From the NCBI GenBank assembly GCA_018818165.1, contig JAHISP010000006.1, forward strand, positions 1 to 64,000: 64,000 nt of DNA. The letters are read 5' to 3'. Within the stretch, counting starts at the first letter, position 1. Each line of letters starts with the position of its first letter. Positions 57,960 to 64,000 of this stretch are shown one piece after another. A program made the position numbers and the translations under genes. Under the pieces are notes generated by a model, which searched no databases, had not been told where the DNA came from, and worked only from the letters and a program-made list of their open reading frames with translations. The stretch comes from Bacteroidota bacterium (lineage in GTDB: Bacteria > Bacteroidota > Ignavibacteria > Ignavibacteriales > Melioribacteraceae).

Positions 57960-58982
57960 TTATCTTTCTAATCCAAGAATATCTTGTATATGAAGCATTC
58001 CAATAACTTGATTTTTTCTAGTTACAACTATGCTATTTATAGGATTCTGTTTAAAGATATTATTTGCATCGTTTAATAATTCGTTTTCATCAATAGTAAA
58101 TGGTTTAACAAGAGTTAAAGTGTCAATCACTTTTTTATTAACAGCTTCAGCACCTTTACTTGCAATTAACCTTCGTAGGTCACCATCTGTAAAAATTCCA
58201 ATGGCTTCATTTTTTTCATTAACAATTGTAACTGCACCAAATTTACCAACTGTCATTTCAAGTAAACATTCCGAAATTGTATTATCAACAGTAGCTGTAG
58301 GATTATCAGTTCCCAAAATATCTTTTATTTTATAAGTCATTAAACGAGTATGTTCAACAAATTGTTGTGTGCCTAAATCGGTTAAATTATTTTTAGTCAT
58401 TTGTTGAATAACTTTCCAAGGTGCTGTAATTGTATGAGTTCCAATATTTAATGCATTTCTAACATGCTCAATGTTTCTAACAGAAGAGAACATAATTTTA
58501 GATTTATAGCCATAATAATTAACAGCATCAACGCATTGTTCAACAAGCGAAAGAGCATCGTGTCCTTGATCTTGCAACCTTCCAACCAATGGACAAACAT
58601 AAGTTGCACCAGCAGCCATTGCCATGTAGGCTTGTTGCAAAGTGTAAACAAGATGGACGTTTACTTTAAAGCCTTTATCAGTTAATATTTTGCATGCCTT
58701 AACACCTTCAAGAGAAATTGGAATTTTATAAACTGTGTTTTCTTTATCAAGTCCTAGTGCATCTTGTCTATAAACTTCTGCAACTATTTGCTCTGCGCTG
58801 TCTCCAAGAGCTTCAATTTGTAAAACCGGAACAATTTTGGAAAGTTCAATTATTGTCGCATCAATATCTGTAATACCATGACGATGCATAAATGTTGGTG
58901 TAGTTGTTAATCCTGAAAGAAAACCTAATTGAAAAGCTTCTTTAATTTCCTCCATATCGGCGGAGTCTAAATATAATTCCAT
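57960..58982 (-). CDS. Transaldolase-like aldolase fused to a CBS domain pair
   Basis: 340 residues. About 1-215 is the small transaldolase/fructose-6-phosphate aldolase (TalC/FSA) fold: YLDSADMEEIKEAFQLGFLS, TTTPTFMHRHG, the Schiff-base Lys in VYKIPISLEGVKA (about 85), VHLVYTLQQAYMAMAAGATY, and ITAPWKVIQQM. From about 225 there is a CBS pair with FGAVTIVNEKNEAIGIFTDG, DLRRLI and NSIVVTRKNQVIGMLHIQDI; the IFTDGDLRR form is typical of the CBS pair of arabinose-5-phosphate isomerase KdsD. Third gene of the kdsB-kdsA unit, 29 nt after kdsA. It may supply arabinose 5-phosphate in place of KdsD; this is inference. Confidence 0.88.
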   Translation of the reverse strand: MELYLDSADMEEIKEAFQLGFLSGLTTTPTFMHRHGITDIDATIIELSKIVPVLQIEALGDSAEQIVAEVYRQDALGLDKENTVYKIPISLEGVKACKILTDKGFKVNVHLVYTLQQAYMAMAAGATYVCPLVGRLQDQGHDALSLVEQCVDAVNYYGYKSKIMFSSVRNIEHVRNALNIGTHTITAPWKVIQQMTKNNLTDLGTQQFVEHTRLMTYKIKDILGTDNPTATVDNTISECLLEMTVGKFGAVTIVNEKNEAIGIFTDGDLRRLIASKGAEAVNKKVIDTLTLVKPFTIDENELLNDANNIFKQNPINSIVVTRKNQVIGMLHIQDILGLER

Positions 58983-59011: not shown

Positions 59012-59845
59012 CTATTTTCTGTATTTAACTTCTATGTTGTGTAATTCTATTAGTGGCTTCAAGAATTCTTCCAATTGAGTAATATCTAATTGACTTGCAG
59101 CATCACAAAGTGCTTCGCTTGGGCATGGGTGAGTTTCAATGAAAATTCCATCAACACCTGAAGCTACACCGGCTCTACCAAGCACTGGCAAATATTGACG
59201 AGCGCCGCCACTTGGATCCGCACTAGGAATTCCATATTTTCTTATTGCGTGCGTAACATCAAAAACAACTGGATAGCCAGTTTCATTTAAATGGTAAAAA
59301 CTTCTTGGATCAACAACCAAATCGTTATAACCGAAAGTGTATCCACGTTCGGTAAGTATTATTTTGTTATTTCCGGATGCTTCAATTTTTTGAACTGGTT
59401 TAATCATATTTTCTGGAGCCAGAAATTGTCCATGTTTTAAATTAATAACACTTCCACTTTTTGCAGCTTCCACAACAAGATGAGTTTGCATAACAAGATA
59501 TGCGGGAATTTGAATTACGTCAACAACATCGGAAGCTGGTTTAATTTGGTCAGGATAATGAATATCGGTAAGTAATGGAAATCCAAATTCGTTTTTCACT
59601 TTTTCAAGAATTCTTAATCCTTCATCAATTCCAGGTCCACTGTAGTATTCAACCGAACTTCTGTTATCCTTTTGAAATGATGATTTATAAATTAATGGGA
59701 TATTTAATCGTTCTGTAATTTCTTTTAGCTCTTCAGCAACTTTCATCATTATACTTTCGTCTTCAATAACGCATGGACCAGAAATTAAAAATAATTGATC
59801 TGCTCCACATTCTATATTTCCAACATTTACTATTTTTTTACTCAT
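59012..59845 (-). CDS. kdsA: 3-deoxy-8-phosphooctulonate synthase
   Basis: Condenses arabinose 5-phosphate with phosphoenolpyruvate to Kdo 8-phosphate. 277 residues. Motifs: FLISGPCVIEDESIMMKVAE, YKSSFQKDNRSSVEYYSGPG, LLTDIHYPDQI, NLKHGQFLAPENMIKP, FDVTHAIRKYG, FIETHPCPSEALCDAAS. Overlaps the kdsB stop by 4 nt. Position between kdsB and the aldolase-CBS gene links the latter to Kdo formation. kdsC is not seen here. Confidence 0.97.
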   Translation of the reverse strand: MSKKIVNVGNIECGADQLFLISGPCVIEDESIMMKVAEELKEITERLNIPLIYKSSFQKDNRSSVEYYSGPGIDEGLRILEKVKNEFGFPLLTDIHYPDQIKPASDVVDVIQIPAYLVMQTHLVVEAAKSGSVINLKHGQFLAPENMIKPVQKIEASGNNKIILTERGYTFGYNDLVVDPRSFYHLNETGYPVVFDVTHAIRKYGIPSADPSGGARQYLPVLGRAGVASGVDGIFIETHPCPSEALCDAASQLDITQLEEFLKPLIELHNIEVKYRK

Positions 59846-60609
59846 AATTTTATTTCCTGTTTACACATTATTTTTCTAATATTTTCCAAATCTTCTTTTG
59901 TATCAACTGACATACTATTGTTATATTTTGAAATTGCAACATGAATTGGATAACCATTTTCAATCCATCTGTTTTGTTCAAGTCCTTCGGCTATTTCAAG
60001 TCTTGATTGAGGAAGATTGGCTATTTTTTCTAAAGTATTGGGTCTGTATCCATACATTCCAAGATGCTTATAAAAATCAGTTTTTCCAAGCCATTCTGAT
60101 TTTTCAATATCTTTAACACCTGGAATTACACTGCGGCTAAAATAAATTGATTTCATATTTTTATCAAAAATTACAAATGCGTTTGTTAAATCTTCTAAAT
60201 CTTCTGCTTTTGTTATTTTAGCAATCAATGTAGCAATTTCTGTAGTTGGATTGTTAAAACAGGCAGTTAATTCCAAAATTTGTTCTGGAACCAGCATTGG
60301 CTCATCACCTTGAATATTTACTACAACATCAAATTTAATTTTAGAATTTTGCTGAATAATATTGTAAGCCTCAAGACATCTATTTGTCCCAGAATTGTGT
60401 TCTTCAGAAGTCATTACAACATTTCCACCAAATGATTTTACTGCGTCTTCTATCCTTTTATCATCAGTAGCTATATAAACATTTTCAATAGCTTTTTGTG
60501 CTTGCTCATAAACGTGCTGTATCATTGGTTTTCCACAAATATCGGCAAGCGGCTTGCCTTCCAATCTTGTGGAACCGAAACGAGCTGGAATTATTCCTAA
60601 AAAATTCAT
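59842..60609 (-). CDS. kdsB: 3-deoxy-manno-octulosonate cytidylyltransferase
   Basis: Activates Kdo, or its 8-amino form, to the CMP sugar. 255 residues from the ATG ending at 60609, which gives the family start MNFLGIIPARFGSTRLEGKP and has GGTG 5 nt upstream; the ATG at 60636 adds nine unrelated residues. Other motifs: CGKPMIQHVYEQAQKA, VNIQGDEPMLVPEQI, YFSRSVIPGV, KHLGMYGYRPNTLEKI, and EQNRWIENGYPIHV. First gene of the minus-strand kdsB-kdsA-aldolase unit. With kdnA and kdnB close by, its natural substrate may be Kdo8N. Confidence 0.96.
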   Translation of the reverse strand: MNFLGIIPARFGSTRLEGKPLADICGKPMIQHVYEQAQKAIENVYIATDDKRIEDAVKSFGGNVVMTSEEHNSGTNRCLEAYNIIQQNSKIKFDVVVNIQGDEPMLVPEQILELTACFNNPTTEIATLIAKITKAEDLEDLTNAFVIFDKNMKSIYFSRSVIPGVKDIEKSEWLGKTDFYKHLGMYGYRPNTLEKIANLPQSRLEIAEGLEQNRWIENGYPIHVAISKYNNSMSVDTKEDLENIRKIMCKQEIKL

Positions 60610-60694
60610 ATACACCGTATAATAATTAAAGAACAAAGATAATGAAATTAATATTAATCAACTTTATTGATAGTTAATAATAAATCTCAAAAAT

Positions 60695-61672
60695 TTAAAT
60701 AGGTTCAGAAAATAGTGTTTTAATAAAATTGAAATCATCATCTGTAAGCGGGTTCTCAGCTGCCGAAAGATTAATTTTCACTTGCTCCAAATTTCTAAAT
60801 CCTGGGATTACCGAACCGACGACCTGATAGTGTAATAAATATTGCAAAGCAGCTCGAGCTAAATCCTTTTTTGAATTTCCAAACCGTTCTTTAAGTTGAC
60901 ATAAACGCCATTCAATTTTTGCAAGATAATCGTGCTTAAATCTTTCATTTCTATTTCTGTGATCACCGGATTCAAATTGAGGAGGATTATCTTTATTATA
61001 TTTATCTAGCAAAATCCCTTGCGCTAATGGCGAAAAAGCGATAAACGAAATATTATTTTCTTCTAATAAATTTCTAACAGGAGTTCCATCGGCGAGATAA
61101 TGATCGTCAATTGCATTGGCAGAACTTTGAAGTACATCTGGTTTTACTATTGGAACAAGTTTCTGAAAATCTTCATTGGAATATGCAGATTGTCCAATTA
61201 ATCTAATTTTTCCTTCTTCTTTTAAACGATTCATTGTTGCAACTGCTTCATCAAGATATTCGTCATTATCTCCAAAATATCCATGATGGAAATAATAAAT
61301 ATCAATATAATCTCGTTTAAGATTTATCAAAGATTGTTCACATTGATGACGAATATGTGCTGGCTCGTATGAATTTTCAGCAGTTCCAGAAAACCATCCA
61401 ACTTTTGATGAAATAATGAATTGGCTTGTTCGCTCTCCAAGAACTCGGGCAAGCATGCGTTCTGCACGACCATTTCCATAATTATCAGCGTTATCAAAAT
61501 GGGTAACTCCATTTTCTATTGCATAATTAATTGCTCTGTTTATTTCAGATTCGTCAACATTTGCCCAACCGATGGAAGAACCATCTTGCCAATTAAGGCC
61601 ACCCATAGTCCAGCATCCTAAACTAATTTCTGATACTTCTATGTTTGTTTTTCCAAGTTTTCTGTATCTCAT
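60695..61672 (-). CDS. Aldo/keto reductase
   Basis: 325 residues. AKR fold with the catalytic tetrad: Asp and Tyr in THFDNADNYGNG, Lys in FIISSKVGWF, His in IYYFHHGYF. MRYRKLGKTNIEVSEISLGC start and RAALQYLLHYQVVGSVIPGF near the end. NADPH-dependent reduction of a carbonyl compound, substrate unknown. It shares its upstream region with the divergent kdnA. Placement between the kds and kdn genes may be functional or incidental. Confidence 0.92.
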   Translation of the reverse strand: MRYRKLGKTNIEVSEISLGCWTMGGLNWQDGSSIGWANVDESEINRAINYAIENGVTHFDNADNYGNGRAERMLARVLGERTSQFIISSKVGWFSGTAENSYEPAHIRHQCEQSLINLKRDYIDIYYFHHGYFGDNDEYLDEAVATMNRLKEEGKIRLIGQSAYSNEDFQKLVPIVKPDVLQSSANAIDDHYLADGTPVRNLLEENNISFIAFSPLAQGILLDKYNKDNPPQFESGDHRNRNERFKHDYLAKIEWRLCQLKERFGNSKKDLARAALQYLLHYQVVGSVIPGFRNLEQVKINLSAAENPLTDDDFNFIKTLFSEPI

Positions 61673-61858: not shown

Positions 61859-63055
61859 ATGCCAGGAATGGAAGTTTATGGTGCAGAAGAGCGAAAAGAA
61901 GTTAATGATGTTTTAGATACAGGAGCTCTATTTCGTTATGGACATGATGAAATTAGAAAAGGGATGTGGAAATCAAAAGAATTTGAAGCCGAAGTTGCAA
62001 ATTATACTGGTGCAAAATATGCGCACGCAGTTTCAAGCGGTTCTACAGCTGTAGCAACACTTCTCGCTGCCGCTGGCATTGGACTTGGAGATGAAATTAT
62101 TGTTCCTCCATTTACATTTGTTGCTCCAATTGAAGCAGCTTTTTTAGCTGGAGCGTTACCAATATTTGCAGAAATTGATGAAACTCTTTGCTTAAGTCCA
62201 GAAGGAATTGAAGCTGCACTTACTCCCAAAACTAAAGCTGTTTTACTTGTTCACATGCTTGGAACAGCTGCAGATATTGATGGAATTATGGAGGTTTGTA
62301 AAAAGCATAATCTAATTTTAATTGAAGATTGTGGACAAGCAATGGGTGCCTTTTGGAAAGGGAAATCAGTTGGATTGTTTGGGAAAGTTGGTTCATTTTC
62401 ATTCGATTATTTTAAGATTACAACTTGTGGGGAAGGTGGTGTAATTATTACTAATGATTTGGATATTTATAATAAAATTGATCAAGTAGCAGACCACGGT
62501 CACACTCATGAGGGAAATAATAGAGGAATGGAACCTCATCATATTATGGGATTTAATTACAGAATTAGTGAGTTAAGTGCTGCTTTTGGTTTAGCTCAAA
62601 TGAGAAAAATTGGTGTTGTAAAAGCTAATAATCAAAAAAATAAAGTTTATTTGAAAAATAGATTAAAAGAAATTCCACAATTAGAATTTAGAGCAAAAGT
62701 GGATATTGAAGGCGATTCTGCCGCCACTTTAAATTTCTTTTTACCCACTGCTGATTTAGCGGTAAAAGTTATTGAACAATTTTCGGCTGTTGGAATTAGT
62801 GGTGCAGCTTATTGGTTCAAAAATCAATATCACTTCATTAATCAATGGGATCACATAAAGAATTTAAGCTTTCCAGCAAAACTTGCGGTTCACCATTTTG
62901 GTGCTCCTCAAGATTATAAAAATCTTCAATTACCAAAATCGCAAGATGTTATGAGCAGATTAGTGTCTTTAGGCATTAGAGCAACATGGACTCAAGAAGA
63001 ACTTGAAATTTTGGGTGATAAAATGGTTAACGCAATTAAAAAAGTAATAGGATAA
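61859..63055 (+). CDS. kdnA: 8-amino-3,8-dideoxy-Kdo transaminase (DegT/DnrJ family)
   Basis: 398 residues, PLP enzyme. The start MPGMEVYGAEERKEVNDVLD, then IIVPPFTFVAPIEAAFLAGA, PIFAEIDETLCLSPEGIEA, EDCGQAMGAFWKGKSVGLFG, and the PLP Lys in FDYFKITTCGEGGVIITN (about 186) closely fit the KdnA line of sugar aminotransferases. KdnA aminates C8 of the 8-oxo Kdo made by KdnB to give Kdo8N. The start ATG 61859 follows GGAGTTATT. The kdnB gene begins 2 nt after the stop. Confidence 0.9.
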   Translation: MPGMEVYGAEERKEVNDVLDTGALFRYGHDEIRKGMWKSKEFEAEVANYTGAKYAHAVSSGSTAVATLLAAAGIGLGDEIIVPPFTFVAPIEAAFLAGALPIFAEIDETLCLSPEGIEAALTPKTKAVLLVHMLGTAADIDGIMEVCKKHNLILIEDCGQAMGAFWKGKSVGLFGKVGSFSFDYFKITTCGEGGVIITNDLDIYNKIDQVADHGHTHEGNNRGMEPHHIMGFNYRISELSAAFGLAQMRKIGVVKANNQKNKVYLKNRLKEIPQLEFRAKVDIEGDSAATLNFFLPTADLAVKVIEQFSAVGISGAAYWFKNQYHFINQWDHIKNLSFPAKLAVHHFGAPQDYKNLQLPKSQDVMSRLVSLGIRATWTQEELEILGDKMVNAIKKVIG

Positions 63056-63057
63056 AA

Positions 63058-64000
63058 ATGCATAAAAATTTCAAAAATATAGATAAAATTGTATATGGCA
63101 AAGGAGCCTTTAGTCAATTAAATGATATTATTGAACCAATAAGAAAAGAAAACGATAAGTTTTTTGTTTTTGTGGTTGATAAATATTTTGAAGGAAAGGA
63201 ATTAGCAAATAGAATTCCAAACCGCGATGAAGATTTATTAATATTTATTGATGTTGATATCAAGGAACCATACACAGAGCAAATTGATAATCTCAGAGAT
63301 TCAATTTTAGCAAATAATGGACTTCCATCAGGTATTGTTGGAATTGGAGGAGGAAGTATTCTTGATATTGCAAAAGCCACTGCGCTCATGTTCACAAACG
63401 AAGGGTCATCAACTTTGTATCAAGGTTTAGATTTAATTAAAAAACCTGGAATATATCATCTTGGTGTTCCAACAATTTCTGGAACTGGTGCCGAATGTTC
63501 TATGACTGCCGTTTTAACCGGTCCAGAAAAAAAACTTGGTCTTAAATGCGAATGGACTGTTCTTAACCAAGTTATACTTGACCCAGAGCTAATTGCAAGT
63601 GTTCCAACCGATAAATGGTTTTATACTGGAATGGATTGCTATATTCATTGTATCGAATCTGAAAGTGGAATCTTTTATAATGCATACTCAAAAGCTTATG
63701 GAGACCAAGCATTGCAATTATGCCGTGAGGTTTTTGTTAACGAAGGACGTGGACAAAATGATGAGAATAATGAAAAATTAATGATTGCTTCATTATTTGG
63801 TGGATTAAGTTTAACATATTCCGAAGTTGGTGCTTGTCACGCTTTTTCTTATGGATTATCGGTTGTAAAAGGTTACCGACATGGAATTGCTAATTGTATT
63901 GCATTTAATCATCTCAAAGAATTTTATGGTGAAGCAGTTGATGAATTCAGAAATATGTTGGAAATTCATAATATTGACTTACCACAAAACTTAGCTAAAG
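63058..64000 (+). CDS. kdnB: Kdo 8-oxidase, iron-type alcohol dehydrogenase (partial, runs off the window)
   Basis: 314 codons visible and open to the window end. ATG 63058 lies 2 nt after the kdnA stop. Iron-containing ADH fold: GIGGGSILDIAKATAL (nucleotide), TISGTGAECSMTAVL, metal-binding GMDCYIHCIESESG and VGACHAFSYGLSVV followed by GYRHGIANCIAF. Position directly after kdnA, as in the known Kdo8N locus of Shewanella, supports KdnB, which oxidises the C8 hydroxyl of Kdo. The C-terminus is outside the window. Confidence 0.88.
   Translation, partial: MHKNFKNIDKIVYGKGAFSQLNDIIEPIRKENDKFFVFVVDKYFEGKELANRIPNRDEDLLIFIDVDIKEPYTEQIDNLRDSILANNGLPSGIVGIGGGSILDIAKATALMFTNEGSSTLYQGLDLIKKPGIYHLGVPTISGTGAECSMTAVLTGPEKKLGLKCEWTVLNQVILDPELIASVPTDKWFYTGMDCYIHCIESESGIFYNAYSKAYGDQALQLCREVFVNEGRGQNDENNEKLMIASLFGGLSLTYSEVGACHAFSYGLSVVKGYRHGIANCIAFNHLKEFYGEAVDEFRNMLEIHNIDLPQNLAK

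Follow-up and report, generated by a model that had tools for sequence, protein, structure and literature searches.

The window, by which we mean the whole stretch of 64,000 nucleotides analysed here, carries a gene that fuses a transaldolase-family barrel to a pair of CBS domains (Table 1); the first plus-strand frame of the same interval is riddled with stop codons. Residues 3–210 of the protein match Pfam TAL_FSA (PF00923; 119 bits against a cut-off of 27) and two further stretches match Pfam CBS (56.6 bits), these being the sole Pfam domains; the FSA equivalog model TIGR00875 gives 163 bits, below its cut-off of 245.95 bits. As 76 loci of public genomes encode relatives of the fusion, and 70 of these relatives are close to full length (334–343 residues), a chance or assembly fusion is excluded. 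The first-pass annotation had described an FSA/transaldolase barrel joined to KdsD-type CBS domains in a gene that follows kdsB-kdsA, and both descriptions are borne out: the Pfam and TIGR matches give the same architecture, and the fusion is the third gene of a run kdsB-kdsA-fusion, in which kdsB shares 4 bases with kdsA and a gap of 29 bases divides kdsA from the fusion. Translation of kdsB probably starts at Met 10 (60609), where its match to TIGR00466 begins.

Table 1. Genes and features of the fusion locus (positions in the window)
Feature	Position	Strand	Basis
Transaldolase-CBS fusion gene, 340 aa	57960..58982	-	ORF and domain matches; relatives at 76 loci
Transaldolase/FSA barrel, residues 1–210	58353..58982	-	Domain matches; short-transaldolase fold match
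Schiff-base lysine K86 of fusion	58725–58727	-	K86 in 71/71 fusions
KdsD-type CBS pair, residues 215–336	57975..58340	-	Profile and PDB matches, CBS tree, motif
IFTDGDLRR of fusion, residues 263–271	58170–58196	-	Motif
kdsA, distinct "M" type	59012..59845	-	TIGR01362, 327 bits vs. cut-off 314
kdsB, CTP:octulosonate cytidylyltransferase	59842..60636	-	TIGR00466, 220 bits vs. cut-off 155
Aldo/keto reductase upstream of kdsB	60695..61672	-	Domain match
kdnA-like aminotransferase, Kdo8N branch	61859..63055	+	Best PDB chain 5k8b
kdnB-like iron alcohol dehydrogenase, cut at window end	63058..64000	+	Likeness to L122 homologue

A kdnA-kdnB pair runs divergently from the kdsB-kdsA-fusion run. The KdnA-like protein finds its best PDB match in 5k8b, an 8-amino-3,8-dideoxy-octulosonate transaminase (1.9e-128; next best 2.8e-49). 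The kdnB-like gene is complete at another locus (L179:59-1138, 359 aa); the PDB comparison was made on the L122 homologue, for which the best chain is 5k8c, Kdo 8-oxidase (2e-121), and the window copy is named by its likeness to that homologue. KdnA- and KdnB-like genes of the Kdo8N branch, known from Shewanella, are thus seen here in an Ignavibacteria-type genome (61859–64000), and the KdnB/KdnA pair is reported to act on Kdo (PMC5125639). The aldo/keto reductase is clustered at 3 of 81 loci. Because of its gene company, the window locus looks like a CMP-Kdo or CMP-Kdo8N locus.

The CBS pair of the fusion is akin to that of KdsD. Against TIGR00393 (KpsF/GutQ/KdsD) the whole protein reaches 70.9 bits, under the cut-off of 203.7, all of it from the CBS part, which aligns to profile positions 153–268 only; the protein has no SIS sugar isomerase domain. 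On this profile the second-ranked CBS stretch of the genome reaches 36.2 bits, and a KdsD model gives 60.8 bits on the CBS part of the fusion. Among PDB structures, residues 213–336 lie nearest to the CBS pairs of arabinose-5-phosphate isomerases (4o9k, 2.1e-13; 3k2v; 3fna). In a tree of CBS sequences (14 of the 71 fusions and 13 of 16 KdsD loci, taken through a DGDLRR filter that dropped L121, L165 and L167), fusion and KdsD sequences group apart from four others with a support of 85/75, which is moderate, and the outgroup branches are long. The annotation had called the motif IFTDGDLRR KdsD-like: this stands for the core TDGD(L/I)RR, common to the fusion and all 15 readable KdsD proteins, but not for the preceding residue, which is Phe in the fusions (xFTDGDLRR in 69 of 71) and Ile, Leu or Val in those KdsD proteins. 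We presume, at about even odds, that the CBS pair senses the end product, CMP-Kdo or CMP-Kdo8N; its relative 4o9k reportedly holds CMP-Kdo, and no account of KdsD CBS domains binding CMP-Kdo was found in the open-licence literature, among the matches listed.

The genome that carries the window (4.88 Mb, 105 contigs, rated 100% complete) retains the rest of the Kdo pathway. It has a single KdsA over the cut-off, a KdsC over the cut-off that lies away from the fusion locus, and WaaA; in a profile search for KdsD, no stretch of it reaches the cut-off, and the best match is the CBS part of the fusion itself. The pathway hole therefore falls exactly at arabinose 5-phosphate. The annotation had named beforehand, as the observation that would count against its proposal, an ordinary KdsD at another place in this genome; such a gene was sought and not found. 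A hidden KdsD was rejected after inspection of the seven SIS-domain matches, which lie on five proteins other than the fusion (a 614-aa frame with two SIS domains, probably GlmS by size and layout, an RpiR-type regulator, GmhA, MurQ and a 420-aa protein with two SIS domains), three of the five being identified also by family. A second KdsA serving LPS was rejected likewise, the other three matches to TIGR01362 scoring at most 135 bits. The operon type ruvB-kdsA-kdsC-kdsD-lptC of sister genomes was not found at the genome's own kdsC, which stands apart. The genome also encodes a full-length classic transaldolase; separately, L018:1423-1761 (G000:C41) encodes a 112-aa short transaldolase in which an internal deletion takes out the region of the catalytic lysine, and which is probably a decaying or misassembled gene.

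The same pattern is seen across genomes. In a phylum set of 296 genomes, each at least 90% complete, we counted the fusion in 5, KdsA in 218 and KdsD in 211 (208 over the cut-off), with E up to 1e-60 for the fusion and KdsA and up to 1e-24 for KdsD. Nine genomes have KdsA without KdsD, and five of these nine carry the fusion (G000, G091, G146, G190 and G292), as against none of the 209 with both KdsA and KdsD (Fisher p = 3.2e-8, taking genomes as independent); two genomes, G052 and G114, have KdsD without KdsA (218 − 9 + 2 = 211). The five fusion genomes belong to four families, f1, f23 (two genera), f35 and f43; in every one of these, other members have KdsD and no fusion, so that the swap is not the effect of one lineage. 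Four further genomes (G023, G200, G268 and G284) have KdsA with neither KdsD nor the fusion matched, possibly through assembly gaps or because they have another source of arabinose 5-phosphate; absence of KdsD alone hence does not imply the fusion enzyme. In a wider sample of 55 fusion-bearing genomes, mostly drafts whose completeness is not stated (54 distinct, as G190 and G332 have identical coordinates; L080 and L086 come from a single strain; the KdsD search took in 50 of the 76 loci), KdsD over the cut-off was found in two, G331 and G315, and in G331 the two genes share one 3.4-Mb contig. A lack of KdsD counts for less in a MAG than in an isolate. WaaA was found in all 34 fusion genomes tested and in three KdsD genomes added to them.

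The KdsA encoded beside the fusion provides a second line of evidence. It is of a distinct type: D60, Y116, M119, H138, R202 and Y204 are present in all 42 fusion-locus rows (from 38 of the 41 loci with a kdsA match, three partial ones being dropped, together with three fusion genomes and the window) and in 0 of 14 KdsA proteins from KdsD genomes, the changes being A60D, F116Y, R119M, K138H, Q202R and P204Y plus a two-residue insert. Four PDB KdsA alignments, among the matches listed, have A, F, R and Q at positions 60, 116, 119 and 202; positions 63 and 247 are fixed in our comparison, yet are S and C also in some PDB KdsA proteins. KdsA of the window type (at least 74% identity to the window KdsA, the next genome having 53%) occurs in 6 of the 296 genomes; five of the six carry the fusion, and the sixth is G249. 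The KdsA of G249 has the same residue as fusion-locus KdsA at all 11 positions compared, in the order kdnA-kdnB-kdsA-HAD-kdsB (kdnB named by likeness), and this genome has a full KdsD elsewhere, two standalone transaldolases only and no match to the fusion. Fusion-bearing G091 shows the same order, with the fusion inserted between kdsA and the HAD gene. As G249 pairs this KdsA type with KdsD, this KdsA evidently runs on the product of KdsD; and that the same KdsA is partnered by either KdsD or the fusion argues that both give arabinose 5-phosphate. From these sequence comparisons, KdsD and the fusion look interchangeable.

We conclude that the fusion very probably supplies arabinose 5-phosphate (a probability of about 0.85), and that its role as a non-homologous replacement of KdsD is well supported by genomic comparison. 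The annotation's suggestion of a non-homologous route to the Kdo precursor thus gains support from both the co-occurrence in 296 genomes and the natural swap in G249.

The fusion is spread over several phyla. By title, the 71 rows of the fusion tree comprise 53 Bacteroidota, 7 Thermodesulfobacteriota, 2 Chlorobiota, 1 Ignavibacteriota, 2 Myxococcota (through the title "Deltaproteobacteria") and 6 in no group. The window and its Ignavibacteria and Chlorobiota kin are joined to Bacteroidota rows (98/84), and rows of the Desulfobacterota type are split in two; these placements suggest that the fusion spread by horizontal transfer, binning errors being the alternative. At 40 of the 76 loci kdsA lies directly upstream on the same strand (at 30 it does not, and 6 have too little DNA), and a KdsC-like HAD gene lies downstream on the same strand at 44; KdnA-like genes are present at 15 loci and KdnB-like genes at 13. 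One such HAD, of about 230 aa, is encoded at L122:2167-2865. Two KdsC-like HADs tested score 54.6 and 57.3 bits against a KdsC cut-off of 208, and these proteins may represent a diverged phosphatase belonging to the pathway.

How the barrel might make arabinose 5-phosphate can be approached through its active site, which we compared in 71 fusions and 25 standalone transaldolases picked by homology with no motif filter (25 of 26 loci, L147 having no matching ORF). Eight residues (D6, T26, E57, K86, N108, R135, S167 and R169) are kept in all 71 fusions, and recur in the standalone enzymes (R169 in 22 of 25, each of the others in 24 or 25). Five positions are changed in all 71: the fusions have T28, H110, L132, F165 and S166, whereas every standalone enzyme has N28, T110 and A166, with F (24) or Y (1) at position 132 and A, V, G or W at position 165. 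Position 130 is C in 65 fusions and T in 6, against S in 24 standalone enzymes and A in one; the pocket of short transaldolases (N28, T110, S130 and F132) is not preserved in the fusion. We take N28 and S130 to contact the C1 hydroxyl, and position 130 of the fusion to be equivalent to S176 of TalB and A129 of FSA. TalB S176/FSA A129 is reported to govern the choice of donor, and the acceptor phosphate to be bound by R181 of TalB (PMC3962226); Asp6 of transaldolases is reported to assist C–C bond cleavage (PMC7092467).

The predicted structure of the fusion (mean pLDDT 92, pTM 0.69) has a barrel that matches the transaldolases of Thermotoga, B. subtilis and T. acidophilum with a TM-score of about 0.9 by target. 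In a barrel tree, 20 of the 71 fusions form one group against 23 standalone transaldolases picked by the TTNP motif (3 of 26 loci dropped), with a support of 99/97. Residue 211 is His in 69 of 71 fusions as against Asp in 23 of 25 standalone transaldolases; T30 and D211 have been mutated in T. acidophilum transaldolase, as PDB entry titles show, and with His in place of D211 the subunit coupling of the fusion may differ.

Arabinose 5-phosphate has carbons 2–6 of fructose 6-phosphate in the same configuration, without the C1 group, and if the barrel makes it, only the C1 site should change. For this reason we favour, somewhat above even chance, aldol addition of glycolaldehyde to glyceraldehyde 3-phosphate as the best single mechanism; the residues around carbons 3–6 are kept and the surroundings of C1 are changed, as should be expected for a donor switch from dihydroxyacetone to glycolaldehyde. 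In the proposed scheme, the fusion would take over from KdsD as an enzyme dedicated to forming arabinose 5-phosphate, a class I aldolase barrel of the transaldolase family standing in for the SIS isomerase domain with a KdsD-type CBS pair attached. Lysine 86 would form a Schiff base with glycolaldehyde; the enamine would attack C1 of D-glyceraldehyde 3-phosphate, which R135, S167 and R169 would hold in place; and hydrolysis would release free D-arabinose 5-phosphate. KdsA would then join arabinose 5-phosphate to PEP to give Kdo 8-phosphate, from which KdsC would take off the phosphate; KdnB and KdnA could convert Kdo to Kdo8N, and KdsB would activate the sugar for WaaA. That the fusion is in full such a dedicated synthase, working by C2 + C3 aldol joining and not by isomerisation of ribulose 5-phosphate, with a KdsD-type feedback sensor on an unrelated catalytic domain, seems to us an evenly balanced proposition. 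The annotation had put forward the FSA-type aldol route, and there is precedent for it: E. coli FsaA and FsaB are described as having glycolaldehyde as a preferred donor and as giving arabinose 5-phosphate with glyceraldehyde 3-phosphate as acceptor (PMC6298115, PMC9947464), which fits the residue changes in the fusion.

Supply of the donor weighs against aldol addition. We know of no glycolaldehyde source in this organism large enough for Kdo; folate synthesis releases some glycolaldehyde, though probably far less than LPS needs. This problem would be solved, with no free glycolaldehyde required, if the barrel instead turned an abundant pentose phosphate into arabinose 5-phosphate, likeliest by 2-epimerising ribose 5-phosphate through a Schiff base at C1, with the C2 proton taken off and put back, or through retro-aldol cleavage and re-addition. 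All the genomic evidence for replacement of KdsD applies equally to such an epimerase, the pocket is unlike that of standalone transaldolases, and the new H110 could serve with E57 as acid and base; yet D6, the aid to C–C cleavage in transaldolases, is kept in every fusion, ketose-to-aldose isomerisation through a lysine is chemically awkward, and we know of no such epimerase in the transaldolase family. As the genomics fits equally and glycolaldehyde is not needed, we keep epimerisation as the main rival, if an unlikely one. Two genomes that carry both genes, and 30 loci with no kdsA directly upstream, count against our preferred account. The changes in the fusion-locus KdsA, R119 to M for example, also speak against it, as they might mean that its substrate differs; the arginine presumably corresponds to Aquifex R106, near the phosphate of arabinose 5-phosphate. 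For the Neisseria enzyme, K133/R163, K50/K55/H197 and N57/R58 are named (PMC6650799); passages of another report do not name the arabinose-5-phosphate contacts that we sought (PMC3052366). The barrel might then make a different aldehyde for a substrate-changed KdsA, and the locus an unusual 3-deoxy-ulosonate in place of Kdo, as the complete separation at D60, Y116, M119, R202 and Y204 (all 42 fusion-locus rows, none of the 14 from KdsD genomes) would allow. A changed KdsA with another substrate is weakened by G249, where the same KdsA type works beside an ordinary KdsD with no fusion, and the KdnB/KdnA pair in the window, with its likes at 13 and 15 of the 76 loci, is of a kind that acts on Kdo; we hold this account to be improbable.

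Two further explanations fare worse still. The fold and family are those of transaldolase/FSA, and K86, E57 and D6 are intact, as they would be in an ordinary enzyme merely placed in a Kdo operon with a CBS pair that senses something unrelated; but the genome already has its full-length classic transaldolase, N28 and T110, invariant in the 25 standalone enzymes, are replaced in every fusion, and the anti-correlation with KdsD would be left unexplained, which makes an ordinary transaldolase very improbable. Just as little weight goes to a KdsD that escaped detection or fell into an assembly gap, the role of the fusion then being an accessory one, in regulation or salvage. Fusion genomes are mostly draft MAGs and two have both genes, but the window's own complete-rated genome has seven SIS matches and no KdsD, the other four fusion genomes of the phylum set, rated 99–100% complete, also lack it, and so do all 10 fusion genomes without MAG in their titles; this explanation is already largely refuted.

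The preferred reading, a KdsD replacement built on an aldolase barrel, places the fusion between several known systems. With KdsD/GutQ/KpsF (TIGR00393) it has in common the company of kdsA, a KdsC-like gene and kdsB, the CBS type with its TDGDLRR core and apparently the same metabolic job; it differs in having no SIS domain, catalysis being assigned to an unrelated Schiff-base aldolase barrel, and in the Phe that precedes the core where KdsD proteins have Ile, Leu or Val. It shares fold, Schiff-base lysine and phosphate site with FsaA/FsaB (TIGR00875), but has H110, T28, F165, the CBS pair, the Kdo-operon setting and a score of 163 against 246 bits; FSA has Gln and Tyr where the fusion has E57 and L132. 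Like the short transaldolases of Thermoplasma acidophilum, Thermotoga and Bacillus subtilis (TAL), it has the acid-base glutamate, Asp6 and Lys86, and the closest solved structures to its barrel are 1vpx, 3r8r and 3s0c (about 32–36% identity), whereas it departs from the 25 standalone enzymes at positions 28, 110, 130, 132, 165 and 166, at D211 in 69 of 71 fusions, and in the added CBS pair. The window aminotransferase, whose best PDB match is KdnA, and the KdnB-like iron dehydrogenase recall the Shewanella Kdo8N pathway; here, in contrast, they accompany a KdsD-less Kdo operon with a distinct KdsA type in an Ignavibacteria-type genome. No report of a transaldolase-CBS fusion or of a replacement of KdsD was found in the open-licence literature, among the matches listed (titles and starts of abstracts); the parts are of known kinds, but none of those matches described their fusion, the role it seems to have or the pathway.

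Arabinose 5-phosphate is needed for Kdo, most Gram-negative bacteria need Kdo for the outer membrane, and KdsD is regarded as the source. If our reading is true, these bacteria would have an undescribed natural route to an LPS building block, through an unrelated aldolase with the same regulatory tail, and glycolaldehyde would be an obligate biosynthetic metabolite for their LPS. The replacement, found in more than one phylum, would close the gap in the pathway of fusion-bearing isolates, among them Runella, Thermonema and Raineya, and would assign a function to proteins whose one other match is to the transaldolase/FSA family. It would be a rare case of unrelated catalytic domains doing the same job under the same type of sensor, and would give the glycolaldehyde chemistry of FSA-type enzymes a physiological role.
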